Part shown: piece by piece, positions 12,426 to 17,814 of the stretch | Layout of the letters: each line of letters begins with the position of its first letter | Position numbering within the stretch: position 1 is the first letter of the stretch | From: Thiosulfativibrio zosterae | GTDB taxonomy: Bacteria; Pseudomonadota; Gammaproteobacteria; Thiomicrospirales; Thiomicrospiraceae | Reading direction: 5' to 3' | NCBI RefSeq assembly: GCF_011398155.1 | Contig: NZ_AP021888.1 | Coordinates: forward strand, 2,330,001-2,394,000 | DNA: 64,000 nucleotides | The notes under the pieces: model-generated | Seen by the model: the letters and a program-made list of their open reading frames with translations, nothing else | Database searches by the model: none | Told to the model about the DNA's origin: nothing | Translations under genes and position numbers: made by a program

Positions 12426-13304
12426 CTAAACGGCGGCAACGCTTGGGATAGCAGAGTGAGAAGGTTGCTCCAGAACGCTATGGTCAATTTCAATCCATTT
12501 GAGTAGTTTCATTTTACCTTCATCGGTTTCCACAATGGCAGTGCAAGACTCTACCCAGTCTCCGCAGTTATAGTAATCGATACCGGAAATTTCCCGGATT
12601 TCTGGGTGGTGGATGTGGCCACAAACCACCCCCTGATAGCCATGCATCTGGCAATCTTTCACCACCGCTTCTTCATAGGCACAAATAAAAGAAACCGCTG
12701 ATTTCACGCGTTGCTTCACATAAGACGACAAAGACCAATACTCTTTGCCCATTAAACGCCGCACCTTATTAAAAACGGTATTGAGTTTGAGCAGGGTTTC
12801 ATAACCCCAATCACCGAGTACCGCCAACCATTTTTGGGTTTGCACTACACCATCGTATTTATCGCCATGCACCACCAGCAATTTATCGCCATTGACACAT
12901 TGATGAGAGGTTTCGTCAGTAAGTAAAATATTGCCAAAATCGACGCCTGAATAACGGCGTAAAAAATCGTCGTGATTACCGGTAACCAGCACCACCTGAG
13001 TGCCGCGTTTTGCTTTAGTGAGAATACGGCGAATCACATTGGTATGGGCTTGTGGCCAAAACACCTTCTTTTTGAGTTGCCAGCCATCAATAATATCGCC
13101 CACTAAATAAAGTTTTTCGCAGTGGTTGTATTTGAGAAACTCTGCCAGAAAATCGGCTTTTGCGCCCTTAGAACCCAAATGGACATCTGAGATAAAAATG
13201 CTGCGGTAGTGCTGATGCTGGTGGGTATTTTCCGCCATAATCAAATCATCTTTTGCAATCGACGCCATCCAATCTGGCATATGGGCAAGTGGCAAGTCTT
13301 TCAT
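12426..13304 (-). CDS. PlcP/LpxH-like metallophosphoesterase
   Basis: A 292-residue calcineurin-type phosphoesterase. The metal-binding motifs are in order: DVH (40-42), GDIIDG (69-74), GNHDD (109-113), VHGDKYD (from 135) and GHIHHPEI. Annotation pipelines call such proteins UDP-2,3-diacylglucosamine hydrolase. However, relatives divergent from or adjacent to lipid-remodelling genes include PlcP, which removes the head group of phospholipids to give diacylglycerol. Divergence from a BtaA-like gene, which uses diacylglycerol, favours PlcP here. ATG 13304 is chosen (GGAG 5 bases upstream) although the frame is open further, to 13418. TGTCA-type motifs in the shared promoter region hint at phosphate control. 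LpxH function cannot be excluded. Confidence 0.75.
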   Translation of the reverse strand: MKDLPLAHMPDWMASIAKDDLIMAENTHQHQHYRSIFISDVHLGSKGAKADFLAEFLKYNHCEKLYLVGDIIDGWQLKKKVFWPQAHTNVIRRILTKAKRGTQVVLVTGNHDDFLRRYSGVDFGNILLTDETSHQCVNGDKLLVVHGDKYDGVVQTQKWLAVLGDWGYETLLKLNTVFNKVRRLMGKEYWSLSSYVKQRVKSAVSFICAYEEAVVKDCQMHGYQGVVCGHIHHPEIREISGIDYYNCGDWVESCTAIVETDEGKMKLLKWIEIDHSVLEQPSHSAIPSVAAV

Positions 13305-13504
13305 GACAACTCCAAAAATTTTGGGGTAGCTTAAGTCTTGCGTATTGCGCCAAGTTGACGATTTTTTTGCAGTTAAATGACAAACCTCCTTGTCATATTT
13401 TGCACACAAAACTGCCATAAAACCTTTGCGTGACTGTCACATTCATTTCAAGAAAAGTTTCTATCGTATTGTGAATTCAATTTTGCTTAAAGGAACGCTT
13501 CTTC
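13305..13504. promoter_or_regulatory. Divergent control region with Pho-box-like TGTCA motifs
   Basis: The 200-base region between the metallophosphoesterase and the btaA-like gene holds three TGTCA-type motifs. These are TTGTCAT-TTAA-CTGCAAA on the minus strand (13366-13383), TTGTCAT from 13390 on the + strand, and CTGTCAC-ATTC from 13434 on the + strand. PhoB boxes are tandem 7-base CTGTCAT units 4 bases apart. The first half-sites match 6 of 7 bases and the second half-sites are weak. Regulation by phosphate starvation is an inference. Confidence 0.4.
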
Positions 13505-14746
13505 ATGAACACGCACAACACGGCAGCCACTCAAGACCTGTTAAATTCAGCCGTCAACAACACCAGCATTTTCAGCCGTAAGGGCATTTTGGATCGACTG
13601 TTCACCAAATGGTTTGACCGACTAGTTTACCCACAAATTTGGGAAGACCCAGAAGTGGATATTCAAGCATTGGGGCTTAACAAACATTCTCGTGTTTTCA
13701 CCATTTCATCAGGGGGCTGCAATGCACTCAACTATTTAACCCTTGAGCCCACCTCGGTGACCGTGGTGGATTTAAATGAAGCCCACATTGCCCTTATAAA
13801 ACTCAAACAAGTGGCCATAGAACAGTTGGATCAAGAAGCGTTTTTTGATTTCTTTGGGCGCGCTAACCTGCCTAAAAACCTGGATACTTTCCGCGCCAAA
13901 ATCAAACCACACCTGGATGAAAAAACCTTGGCCTACTGGGAAGGCAAACAAAACTTTTGGTCAAAACCCCGCATTCACTACTTTACCAATGGGTTTTACC
14001 GACATGGCTTGCTTGGACATTTTATTGGTTTGATTCACTGGGTCAGCAAACGCTTAGGATATGACATTAGCCAAGTCATGCAGGCGCATACCCTAGAAGA
14101 ACAAGCAGAGTTGTTTGATAAACATGTCGCGCCAGTTTTTGAGACGCGTTTAATGAAGTTTTTATCCAATCGCGCCATTGTGATGTACAGTTTAGGCATT
14201 CCGCCGGCACAATTTGATGAAATGGCCAAAGAATCCCATGACCTAAATTTAGGCATGCACAATCTCCTTAAAGCCCGTGCGCGTCGTTTGGCGTGTGATT
14301 TTCCGTTGGACAGCAACTATTTTGCATGGCAAGCCTTCAATCGCGAATACGACATCAAACACCGCAAAGCCGTGCCGCGTTATTTAATGACCGAACACTT
14401 TGCCACCCTAAAAGCCAATACCAGCAAACTCAGCATTCACCATCAGTCCATGACTGAGCGCCTAAAAGCCATGCCCAGCAACAGCCTCACTTCTTATTTG
14501 TTTTTGGATGCGCAAGATTGGATGAACGAACAACAACTGACCGAGTTATGGCAAGAGGTCAATCGCACCGCCATGCCGGGCGCGCGAGTGGTTTTTAGAA
14601 CGGCTGGCGAAGTGTCACCTTTAGAGGCCAAATTGCCAAGCCACATTTTAGGCGGTTGGACAACCGATCTAGACGCCAACAAAGCTTGGACAGCACAAGA
14701 CCGCTCGGGTATTTATGGAGGCGTTCATGCCTACCAACGCGCTTAA
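13505..14746 (+). CDS. btaA: BtaA-like DUF3419 aminocarboxypropyl transferase
   Basis: A 413-residue protein of the DUF3419 family, the length of the Rhodobacter BtaA enzyme. BtaA moves the 3-amino-3-carboxypropyl group of S-adenosylmethionine to diacylglycerol, the first step of betaine-lipid (DGTS) synthesis. An SAM-binding glycine loop, TISSGGCNALNYL, is at 66-78 and the acidic VVDLNEAH at 87-94. The end part has a second methyltransferase-like stretch (VNRTAMPGARVVFRTAGE). The ATG at 13505 follows AAAGGAACG. The gene overlaps the next one by 20 bases. The N-methyltransferase BtaB, needed for full betaine lipid, is not in the window. Confidence 0.82.
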   Translation: MNTHNTAATQDLLNSAVNNTSIFSRKGILDRLFTKWFDRLVYPQIWEDPEVDIQALGLNKHSRVFTISSGGCNALNYLTLEPTSVTVVDLNEAHIALIKLKQVAIEQLDQEAFFDFFGRANLPKNLDTFRAKIKPHLDEKTLAYWEGKQNFWSKPRIHYFTNGFYRHGLLGHFIGLIHWVSKRLGYDISQVMQAHTLEEQAELFDKHVAPVFETRLMKFLSNRAIVMYSLGIPPAQFDEMAKESHDLNLGMHNLLKARARRLACDFPLDSNYFAWQAFNREYDIKHRKAVPRYLMTEHFATLKANTSKLSIHHQSMTERLKAMPSNSLTSYLFLDAQDWMNEQQLTELWQEVNRTAMPGARVVFRTAGEVSPLEAKLPSHILGGWTTDLDANKAWTAQDRSGIYGGVHAYQRA

Positions 14747-15881
14747 TGCAACTGCGCACACTGACGAGAAACCCTGTTCGGCGCAAAGTTTTGTCAATAC
14801 ACTGAGCAAACTCAGCATTCATCAGGGTTCCGAAAATATCGGCATTCGCAATGTAGATACTCAAGTGCAACTGGTGCAAATTGGCAACCAACTCGTGCCG
14901 GCCACTTTAAACAGCGCCGAATATCAAAACAGTTATGTGTGCTCACCCTATACCGCTTATATTTCTTACGCCAAAGACGAACTAGGGCTGCTGAACAATC
15001 CGCTGTTAGAAAGCCTGCTTTCTGGCGGAATTATTTTGGCAGGTTTAGCGCTTAAACTGGCAAAACTCAATCAAACCCTGTCACTCAACAACTGGTTGGT
15101 TTCCACCAATCTATTACCCAGTTGGACAGCGCAAGACATACAAGAAGCCACCCAACGCCTAACCCAGCAACGCCCACAACATTCACTGAGTATTCGCTCG
15201 CTCAACCTAAAACATCATTCCACTTTAATTGAGCTGCTCAAATCGCAAGGTTGGCTTTTACTGCCCGCGCGCCAAGTGTATTTGTTTGACAACCATGACC
15301 GCCAATGGTGGCAACGCAATCACACCAAAAAAGACCAAGCACTGCTACGCAAAGTCGAAGCCGGCAAACTGCCACTGCATTGGTTAAAACCGCATGAGTT
15401 ATTAGACAGCGATTTTAAATCGCTAGAAATTTGTTTTAACCAACTGTTTATTGAAAAACATTCGCCCTACAACCCACAATTTAGCGCAGAGTTTTTGCGC
15501 GAGATGCATCATCAAGGGCTGATAGAATTTCACAGTTTTCGAGATGAAAATGGCCGCATTATTGCTACCATTGGTTTGTTTACCCAACAAAACACCATCA
15601 CCACGCCAATTGTGGGTTACGACACCGATCTCCCCAAAGAACTCGGGCTATATCGCTTATTGATGGCAGTCTTATTACGCCTTACCTACGAGCGCCAACA
15701 ACCCATGAATTTAAGCTCTGGCGCTGGCAGTTTTAAACGCGCCAGAGGCGGTGAACCAGTGTTGGAGTACACCGCCTTTTATACCCAACACCTTCCCTGG
15801 GGACGCCGATTCATTCACCAAGGCTTCGCCAAACTTTTAAACAAATTTGCACCCAAAATGTTTGAAAAACATCAAATCTAA
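14727..15881 (+). CDS. GNAT-like acyltransferase, function unknown
   Basis: A 384-residue cytoplasmic protein. The C-terminal half (about 185-360) resembles GNAT / FemX-like N-acyltransferases: LYRLLMAVLLRLTYERQQPMNLSSGAGSFKR is like the acceptor/CoA region of 'GNAT family' proteins annotated from position rather than biochemistry. The N-terminal half has no feature I recognise. ATG 14727 is chosen because GGAGG lies 5 bases upstream, which makes it overlap the btaA stop by 20 bases and implies translational coupling. A role in modifying the BtaA product, for example acylating its free amine, is a guess from position. A perfect palindrome that may act as terminator follows at 15911. Confidence 0.6.
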   Translation: MPTNALNATAHTDEKPCSAQSFVNTLSKLSIHQGSENIGIRNVDTQVQLVQIGNQLVPATLNSAEYQNSYVCSPYTAYISYAKDELGLLNNPLLESLLSGGIILAGLALKLAKLNQTLSLNNWLVSTNLLPSWTAQDIQEATQRLTQQRPQHSLSIRSLNLKHHSTLIELLKSQGWLLLPARQVYLFDNHDRQWWQRNHTKKDQALLRKVEAGKLPLHWLKPHELLDSDFKSLEICFNQLFIEKHSPYNPQFSAEFLREMHHQGLIEFHSFRDENGRIIATIGLFTQQNTITTPIVGYDTDLPKELGLYRLLMAVLLRLTYERQQPMNLSSGAGSFKRARGGEPVLEYTAFYTQHLPWGRRFIHQGFAKLLNKFAPKMFEKHQI

Positions 15882-16059: not shown

Positions 16060-16674
16060 ATGTCCTATCTCAATCCAGCCGGTTTTAGTGACGCTAAAAA
16101 GAAAATACTCAATAGCGCCTTAACCCTATTTGTTGAAAAAGGCTTTTTCAATACCTCTATTCCCGATTTAGTCGCACACTCTGGCGTCAGCACTGGCTCT
16201 ATCTATCACGGCTTTAAAGACAAACAGAAAATTGCTGAAACCCTCATGCAGCAACTTTTATTGCAAATTGAAGCAGAACAATCCAGCATTTTAGAACAGC
16301 ATCAAGATGCTTGGTCTCGCTTTTATGCCCTATCCGCATGGTTAATGCAAACCGCACAAAATCACCCTCATGTGATGCGTTTTATTTTAAATGCGCGCCA
16401 CAAAGAGTTTATGCCAGAACTTGACCCCATTTGCTCCTCACAACCCTTTATGACTTTGCGCAGTGTTATTCAGCAGGGAATGGACGAAGGCTGTGTGCGC
16501 CAGATGGATTTAATGGTGGCGGCTTCCAGCAGTTACGGTGGCGTGCTGAGATTGATTCAGCTTGGACTGGATCAAATGCTAGAGCGCCCCATCATCAGTT
16601 ATTTAGATGACATTACCCACTGCTGCTGGCACAGCATCAGCATTCAAGACCCTCAAACAACCCATCATTTTTAG
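16060..16674 (+). CDS. TetR/AcrR family transcriptional regulator
   Basis: A 204-residue regulator with a TetR_N helix-turn-helix at about 14-60 (ILNSALTLFVEKGFFNTSIPDL, recognition helix in VSTGSIYHGFKDK) and a variable ligand-binding C-terminal half. It probably represses its own operon through the two palindromes directly upstream, one of which covers the -10 box. The next gene, an exported metallo-beta-lactamase-fold protein, starts 30 bases downstream and is the likely target function. The ligand is unknown. Confidence 0.9.
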   Translation: MSYLNPAGFSDAKKKILNSALTLFVEKGFFNTSIPDLVAHSGVSTGSIYHGFKDKQKIAETLMQQLLLQIEAEQSSILEQHQDAWSRFYALSAWLMQTAQNHPHVMRFILNARHKEFMPELDPICSSQPFMTLRSVIQQGMDEGCVRQMDLMVAASSSYGGVLRLIQLGLDQMLERPIISYLDDITHCCWHSISIQDPQTTHHF

Positions 16675-16704
16675 CACTAATAAAATCAATCTTTTCAGGA
16701 GGAA

Positions 16705-17814
16705 ATGATGAACAATCTGCTACGCATTTTATCTTTAACAATCTTAACCAGCCACCTACCGACGGCACTGGCTGAAGATGCTTATATCAAAAGTTTTGAA
16801 GCCTATGCTCAAGACCTAAAAGCTAAAACAGGTGACACGCACTTGTCTCAGAGCGTGTTGAACTATGCCGAGGAAGTTGCCAAAGCAGAGAAAAAAGCAG
16901 GCTACATCGGCAAAACCCTCACCCTGCCTCCTGCGATTGAAGTTGCGCCGGGGGTATATACCCTTGTGGGCAGTTTAATTTGGCACAATCCTTCCAACTA
17001 CGGCCTTAATAACAACTTAACCTTTATGGTTTTTGAAGACGGCGTGTTTGTATTTAACGCTGGTCCAAACCCTGCGGTTGCCCATGCCTTTCATCAACAA
17101 ATCAAAAAAATCACCGACAAACCGGTTAAGTGGGTTGCCGTTGAAAACAGTCAAGGTCACGCTTATTTAGGCGCGAGTTACTGGGTAGATAAGGGTGTTA
17201 AGCATCTTTATTCGCACAGTGTTGCCAACCGAGACTTTCACAATGCTTTTGAACACATTAAAAAAAGCTGGGGCGATAGAGTGGGACATGAAATCACTCA
17301 AACAGCCAGAGATGTGTCGGGGCAATTTACCACCTTTGACGAGCCACTGCGCATTAAGGTTGGCGAAAATGAAGAAGTTCAAATCATGAACTTTGGCCCT
17401 GGCCATACACCGGGTTCAACCGTGGTTTATGTACCGAGCCGCAATATTGTTTTGCCAGGAGATCTTGCCTATAACGAACGAATGCTGGCACTTTTTTCTT
17501 ATACCGACACCTTTCAATGGACGCAGACTTTTGAAAACTTTGTGAACGCTATGCCTAAAGATGTCATCGTCATACCTGGACATGGCCATCCCACAACCTT
17601 AGCGCAAGTGAAAATCGATACCTATGATTATTTAAAGTTCTTACAAAATGCTGTTCAAGACTTGATTAACAAAGGTGGAACAGAGGCGGATGTTAAGGAA
17701 ATTGACCAGTCTGCTTATAAAGACAGACCCGTTTACGAACAAACCCACCTTCAAAATGCGGCGCATATTTATAAAGAAATTACCGGTGGCGACTTAGGGC
17801 AAAGTTATGAATAA
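16705..17814 (+). CDS. Exported metallo-beta-lactamase-fold protein with altered metal site
   Basis: A 369-residue protein with a signal peptide (about 1-23, cleaved after TALA) and an MBL fold. The usual HxHxDH motif is replaced by NSQGHA: Asn148, Gln150, His152 and Ala153. The later ligands are kept: His234 (GPGHTPGST), Asp253 (LPGDLAY) and His293 (VIPGHGHP). The first metal site is therefore changed or lost while much of the second remains. Similar periplasmic MBL proteins occur near sulfur-oxidation and quinoprotein genes, but no such gene is adjacent. AGGAGG stands just before the ATG. Ordinary hydrolase activity is uncertain. It is in an operon with the TetR regulator. Confidence 0.8.
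   Translation: MMNNLLRILSLTILTSHLPTALAEDAYIKSFEAYAQDLKAKTGDTHLSQSVLNYAEEVAKAEKKAGYIGKTLTLPPAIEVAPGVYTLVGSLIWHNPSNYGLNNNLTFMVFEDGVFVFNAGPNPAVAHAFHQQIKKITDKPVKWVAVENSQGHAYLGASYWVDKGVKHLYSHSVANRDFHNAFEHIKKSWGDRVGHEITQTARDVSGQFTTFDEPLRIKVGENEEVQIMNFGPGHTPGSTVVYVPSRNIVLPGDLAYNERMLALFSYTDTFQWTQTFENFVNAMPKDVIVIPGHGHPTTLAQVKIDTYDYLKFLQNAVQDLINKGGTEADVKEIDQSAYKDRPVYEQTHLQNAAHIYKEITGGDLGQSYE

Follow-up and report, generated by a model that had tools for sequence, protein, structure and literature searches.

Which lipid is made by a bacterium in which btaA is followed by the gene of a GNAT-like transferase, in the position that btaB takes elsewhere? This question is raised by a locus of Thiosulfativibrio zosterae, found in a stretch of 64,000 nt (hereafter the window) of its genome, which is a single complete contig of 2.65 Mb (NZ_AP021888.1). 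In the known pathway to diacylglyceryl-trimethylhomoserine (DGTS), present in Rhodobacter sphaeroides and Sinorhizobium meliloti and often accompanied by the phosphoesterase PlcP, BtaA acts together with BtaB, which methylates diacylglyceryl-homoserine (DGHS) three times. An initial annotation of the window described a phosphoesterase gene divergent from a BtaA-like gene that overlaps a GNAT-like gene, and proposed that the product could be unmethylated or N-acylated DGHS. The analysis reported here confirmed the three open reading frames, for a phosphoesterase on the minus strand and for a 413-residue DUF3419 protein and a GNAT-like protein on the plus strand, as well as the 20-base overlap between the last two (14727-14746). 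The evidence makes it reasonably probable that the Thiomicrospiraceae synthesise a membrane lipid of a new, phosphorus-free class, in which the amine of DGHS carries either an amino acid delivered by aminoacyl-tRNA or an acyl chain.

Gene neighbourhood and history of the btaA-GNAT pair

The product of btaA matches DUF3419 (PF11899) over its full length (356 bits, E 3e-106, spanning 4-384 of 385), is the only PF11899 protein of the genome and is 41% identical to a Rhizobium BtaA whose gene adjoins a BtaB-like methyltransferase gene. Together with its place in a tree among BtaB-linked BtaA proteins, this match identifies it as a BtaA, which by analogy with its family would form DGHS from S-adenosylmethionine (SAM) and diacylglycerol. 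The pairing of a PlcP-like gene with a divergent, full-length btaA was thus upheld. The absence of btaB also held when the complete genome was searched by similarity with one BtaB, from the Rhizobium btaAB operon: no homologue was found, and the top matches were UbiE (27.7 bits) and UbiG (15.3 bits). With no BtaB detected by this search beside btaA or elsewhere in the genome, the locus does not qualify as a BtaA-BtaB pathway to DGTS. It shares with that pathway the BtaA orthologue, the neighbouring PlcP, the Pho boxes and, in many relatives, the order btaA-X-plcP; it differs in that X is a tandem-GNAT transferase and not the N-methyltransferase BtaB.

A survey of 59 genomes of the Thiomicrospiraceae found the DUF3419 gene and the GNAT gene together in 32 genomes and both absent from the other 27, with no genome carrying one without the other. 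This association is far beyond chance, and its Fisher p of 2e-17 is indicative only, since related genomes are not independent. At every family locus examined the two genes were adjacent, often with plcP as the third gene, and the named relatives are Hydrogenovibrio, Thiomicrorhabdus and other sulfur oxidisers of the Thiomicrospiraceae/Piscirickettsiaceae. The gene-neighbour survey therefore extends to the whole family the claim that a GNAT gene stands in place of btaB.

The same BtaB query was then applied to a class sample of 369 gammaproteobacterial genomes. Every full-length btaA outside the GNAT-linked group (18 of 18) had a BtaB-like gene directly downstream and none had the GNAT gene. 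The GNAT family occurred in just three of the 369 genomes, exactly those whose btaA has no adjoining btaB, one of them (G115) being a fragment at a contig end. The same slot is thus filled by btaB in the btaA-btaB-plcP order of several gammaproteobacteria and by the GNAT gene in the btaA-GNAT-plcP order of Thiomicrorhabdus. In a maximum-likelihood tree of BtaA, the 29 GNAT-linked rows formed one clade (99/98) nested in a larger clade (100/97) with BtaB-linked BtaA proteins. Because the GNAT-linked proteins are a single clade nested in this way, one replacement is the simplest history, and btaB was probably replaced by the GNAT gene once. The tree of the GNAT proteins likewise placed the BtaA-linked proteins of the Thiomicrospiraceae in one clade (95/97), and the locus is a lineage-wide, probably Pho-controlled replacement of BtaB. 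Position, mutual exclusivity with btaB and co-occurrence with btaA together make it likely that the GNAT enzyme acts on DGHS.

Several other loci were seen in these surveys. The class sample's only GNAT-type btaA locus outside the family (G115:C7, L116) belongs to a genome of 1.1 Mb that is assigned to another family; its BtaA groups within the Thiomicrospiraceae clade, which points to transfer or misbinning. A contig filed as a Synechococcaceae cyanobacterium (L148, JAAUTD010000180.1) carries a GNAT gene 59% identical to that of the window and is probably misbinned Thiomicrospiraceae DNA. The shorter, distant DUF3419 loci of the class sample had neither btaB nor the GNAT gene alongside; this subfamily is found in other gammaproteobacteria (L125-L131, L069), and in Roseinatronobacter the shorter DUF3419 gene is accompanied by genes for UbiA-type prenyltransferase, PEP/pyruvate-binding and AMP-binding proteins.

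The GNAT protein and the group it may transfer

The GNAT protein matches PF13480 (Acetyltransf_6) at 24.0 bits, a weak score that lies over the cut-off of 22. Structure prediction by AlphaFold with 57 homologues gave a tandem-GNAT model with a predicted local distance difference test score (pLDDT) of 92.6 and a predicted template modelling score (pTM) of 0.89. Structural alignment of this model ranked FemX first (Z 15.4-16.4; at the best Z, a root-mean-square deviation of 3.7 over 269 residues), together with the streptothricin-type peptide synthases Sbb17 and Sba18 (Z 15.9-16.1), followed by MprF (Z 14.7). These best solved matches, FemX, Sbb17, Sba18 and MprF, are all aminoacyl-tRNA-dependent transferases and aligned over nearly the whole length. 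Within an F-K-x-x-R-G motif, K337 is invariant in 57 of 57 homologues (the codons of F336-K337 lie at 15732-15737). FemX carries a matching F304-K305 pair, in which K305 is the described catalytic residue, and in DhpH-C, with F328-K329, Lys329 has likewise been described as catalytic (PMC12945691). The C-terminal helix has a net charge of +5 (mean, +4.5); a positive C-terminal helix has been proposed to bind tRNA in FemX (PMC12945691). Because the closest folds are those of FemX, Sbb17 and MprF and the FemX-like Phe-Lys motif is invariant, an aminoacyl group is the better bet: if the enzyme does act on DGHS, its predicted donor is aminoacyl-tRNA with reasonable probability, and acyl-coenzyme A (CoA) or acyl-acyl carrier protein (ACP) is a doubtful one.

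Comparison with known systems helps to define what this protein may be. With FemX, DhpH-C and Sbb17, which belong to the FemABX or FemX-like natural-product enzymes and gave the best structural matches (Z to 16.4), it shares the F-K motif and, by prediction, the formation of an amide bond to an amino group, whereas it has no PF02388 match and its context is a lipid gene pair. With MprF and LysX, which make lysyl- or alanyl-phosphatidylglycerol and lysyl-diacylglycerol, it shares the tandem-GNAT catalytic fold and the expectation of a lipid substrate, but it has neither an LPG_synthase_C match nor a membrane flippase domain, and the expected acceptor is the amino group of DGHS instead of a glycerol hydroxyl. 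The synthesis of lysyl-diacylglycerol by the MprF homologue LysX is a precedent (PMC10580965). Like OlsB, OlsF and GluB (PF13444), the window protein would be a GNAT enzyme that builds phosphorus-free amino-acid lipids, although it belongs to another GNAT family and the genome's own OlsF-like gene lies outside the window.

Some results weigh against the reading of an aminoacyl-tRNA-dependent enzyme that acts on DGHS. Tandem GNATs that use acyl- or acetyl-CoA also match the model, at lower Z (VipF 13.7, N-myristoyltransferase 11.9), and the correspondence with the F-K pair of FemX was drawn from the motif and not from a superposition of residues. A GNAT profile run against PDB sequences retrieved chance matches and no relative, and comparing the GNAT alignment with a single FemAB protein by hhalign gave nothing. 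The protein has no match to Pfam FemAB (PF02388). The 57 homologues match 16 families, which do not include PF02388; a single homologue matches the related PF04339. LPG_synthase_C (PF09924) was matched neither by this protein nor by any other in the whole genome. Homologues in other bacteria stand beside ATP-grasp and Rieske genes without BtaA, so that membership of the family does not by itself imply a link with DGHS, and both the chemistry of the enzyme and its lipid product are predictions from genes and a modelled fold. The tandem-GNAT fold and a candidate catalytic lysine, placed by motif, are thus found without the PF02388 sequence match. Of the suggestion that the protein belongs with GNAT and FemX families, the FemX-like fold stood and membership of FemABX by sequence did not; the model supports a protein that works like FemABX or MprF enzymes.

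The strongest alternative is that the GNAT enzyme uses acyl-ACP or acyl-CoA as donor and places a fatty acyl (or acetyl) group on the alpha-amino group of DGHS, giving an anionic, three-chain N-acyl-DGHS. The genetic evidence for action on DGHS is identical for this alternative, GNAT enzymes are known to lead to ornithine and glutamine lipids by N-acylating amino acids (PMC11631085), and N-myristoyltransferase, at Z 11.9, is an example of the acyl-CoA tandem GNATs that match the model. It is nevertheless unlikely. The known aminolipid N-acyltransferases share PF13444 (PMC11631085), which the GNAT protein does not match, and the genome has a separate protein of that kind: its sole PF13444 match (C1:2410364, outside the window; L233:460-2250) is an OlsF-like protein of 596 residues with PF13444 at the C terminus and an acyltransferase-like part at the N terminus. 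The CoA-loop motif [RQ]xxGx[GA] is absent (0 of 57 GNAT homologues), and the aminoacyl-tRNA enzymes are closer in fold by about 2 to 4 Z units. Of the initial proposal of an unmethylated or N-acylated product, the GNAT locus without btaB therefore stands, while the N-acyl chemistry has lost ground to folds that are aminoacyl-tRNA-dependent and is kept as a rival. Because of the OlsF-like protein, the same genome probably makes an ornithine lipid as well, and the homoserine lipid would not be its sole phosphorus-free aminolipid.

A second alternative is that plain DGHS is the product and that the GNAT enzyme, under the same regulation, acts on another substrate such as a lysolipid, an envelope component or a protein. 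The wider family gives some ground for it. A scan of genome contigs with a single protein retrieved nothing; a scan with an alignment yielded 334 relatives, of which the best 80 were kept. Homologues of about 30-41% identity were found in Paenibacillaceae, Burkholderiaceae, Rhizobiaceae, Shewanella, Planctomycetes and others. Their usual context is an ATP-grasp gene, the GNAT gene and a Rieske gene, often preceded by genes for KASIII, an OleD-like reductase, a lactonase-like protein and an F390-synthetase-like protein, with no BtaA, which indicates that other molecules can be substrates of the family. Against this, the GNAT gene strictly accompanies btaA, directly next to it, in 32 genomes and was never seen in the family without btaA, and it occupies the btaB slot to the exclusion of btaB. 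In Shinella oryzae (NZ_CP081988, L068:2826-9158), moreover, a distant DUF3419 gene (PF11899, 146 bits) replaces the ATP-grasp gene, directly before and overlapping a gene of the same GNAT family. A DUF3419-GNAT pairing seen twice in different surroundings supports a GNAT enzyme that acts on the product of the DUF3419 enzyme and leaves this second alternative improbable. It is still less probable that ordinary DGTS is made by a methyltransferase unrelated to BtaB or by a moonlighting UbiE-like one, with the GNAT enzyme as an accessory: unrelated N-methyltransferases would escape a search made with one BtaB, but the genome is one complete contig, UbiE and UbiG have their own jobs, and with the same query BtaB is found next to all other full-length btaA genes in the class sample.

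The scan also brought to light a conserved cluster of KASIII, a PRK06849-like ATP-grasp protein, an OleD-like reductase, a protein of AttM-like lactonase fold, an F390-synthetase-related enzyme and the same GNAT family (L032:487-7053, also L162-L223). A Rieske protein is often part of it. The cluster is present in Paenibacillus, Cohnella, Brevibacillus, Burkholderiaceae, Shewanella and others, and has the look of a lipid or beta-lactone/olefin-type pathway that has not been described. Minimal sets of ATP-grasp, GNAT and Rieske genes are present in relatives of Paenactinomyces, Thiomargarita and Ralstonia (L169, L172, L186, L189), and in uncultured Shewanella the ATP-grasp cluster is followed downstream by two more, very divergent GNAT paralogues in tandem (L174:10588-12725, L175).

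PlcP, Pho-box-like sites and layout of the locus

The phosphoesterase frame (12426-13418, minus strand) matches Metallophos (PF00149) at 42.9 bits. The possibility that it encodes the genome's only LpxH was rejected, because its score with the LpxH model TIGR01854 is 48 bits, below the cut-off of 190, and a separate gene, the true LpxH, scores 221 bits. The protein is 48% identical to a Sinorhizobium meliloti homologue, and its relatives adjoin btaA-btaB in other gammaproteobacteria; a similar arrangement with btaA-btaB has been described for the PlcP type-1 clusters of marine bacteria (PMC4796936). As a metallophosphoesterase that is distinct from LpxH, resembles the S. meliloti protein and is linked to lipid-remodelling genes and Pho boxes, it is best named PlcP, with an activity predicted from its sequence. 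In the nearest relative (L146) the plcP frame is closed just upstream of MKDLPL, and the real start is therefore probably that methionine, at 13304, which makes the divergent intergenic region with btaA about 200 bases long, rather than 86.

Two Pho-box-like sites, one on each strand, lie in this intergenic region (Table 1). Candidate 18-base sites were judged against the background of the window and the retrieved loci, with p obtained by shuffling. The site before btaA, CTGTCACATTCATTTCAA, had a shuffle p of 0.01 and is kept as CTGTCACAAACGTTTCAA in L146, and just four sites as good were found on both strands of the whole window; the site on the plcP strand, TTGTCATTTAACTGCAAA, is weaker. A site of this kind at p<0.05 was present upstream of 24 of 25 btaA genes of the GNAT-linked type; a Fisher combination of the p values overstates their significance, since the genomes are related, and is not read as a probability. 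PhoB and PstS are encoded in the genome, whose own pstS promoter has strong tandem Pho boxes. The btaA-GNAT-plcP module is probably Pho-controlled, as predicted from these sites, and the link to phosphate starvation that had been presumed is consistent with them.

Table 1. Features of the plcP-btaA-GNAT locus, in positions of the window
Feature	Position	Strand	Remarks
plcP-like phosphoesterase	12426..13304	-	292 aa from probable start 13304; open reading frame open to 13418
Pho-box-like site TTGTCATTTAACTGCAAA	13366..13383	-	would serve plcP; score 10.1 of 14.2
Pho-box-like site CTGTCACATTCATTTCAA	13434..13451	+	71 bases upstream of btaA ATG
btaA (DUF3419)	13505..14746	+	413 aa; putative SAM:diacylglycerol 3-amino-3-carboxypropyltransferase; PF11899 match
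Tandem-GNAT, FemX-like transferase in btaB position	14727..15881	+	384 aa; PF13480; AlphaFold model

The GNAT gene has an alternative start, an ATG at 14715, that would give 388 aa. Its overlap with btaA recurs only in L146, and in the other genomes a short gap separates the neighbouring genes. Downstream (16060-17814) is a gene for a TetR regulator, followed by one for a metallo-beta-lactamase-fold protein that resembles quinoprotein relay hydrolases, under their cut-offs. The pair is retained in L146, and the hydrolase gene is near btaA in two further genomes of the family (L142, L144).

Proposed pathway and its meaning

The pathway proposed here would begin under phosphate starvation and the control of PhoB, when PlcP would take the phosphorylated head group off phospholipids and leave diacylglycerol. 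BtaA would then move the 3-amino-3-carboxypropyl group of SAM to diacylglycerol, giving DGHS, and, instead of the three methylations by BtaB, the FemX/MprF-like tandem-GNAT enzyme would attach a group by an amide link to the free alpha-amino group. This group would most likely be an amino acid from aminoacyl-tRNA, and the product an aminoacyl-homoserine lipid, phosphorus-free and zwitterionic or cationic. As a whole, with a PhoB-controlled module, a GNAT enzyme fed by aminoacyl-tRNA and aminoacyl-DGHS as product, this reading is tentative, its chances falling just short of even. Searches of the open-licence literature turned up no account of the btaA-GNAT pair, none of a homoserine lipid from these genera and none of an aminoacylated homoserine lipid.

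If the aminoacyl reading is true, this would be a BtaA pathway without methylation, joining the lipid remodelling of phosphate starvation, as part of the Pho response, to tRNA-dependent lipid aminoacylation, and it would be encoded by two adjacent genes carried by cultured strains. With an amino acid bound to its amine, the head group would stay zwitterionic or cationic, and the lipid could replace phosphatidylethanolamine; with an N-acyl group instead, the lipid would be anionic and three-chained. DGTS and other intact polar lipids serve as markers for phosphorus stress and for particular organisms, and a btaA gene is understood to indicate betaine lipids. In the Thiomicrospiraceae it probably does not, and gene surveys that equate btaA with DGTS would then be wrong for these sulfur oxidisers of vents and sediments.

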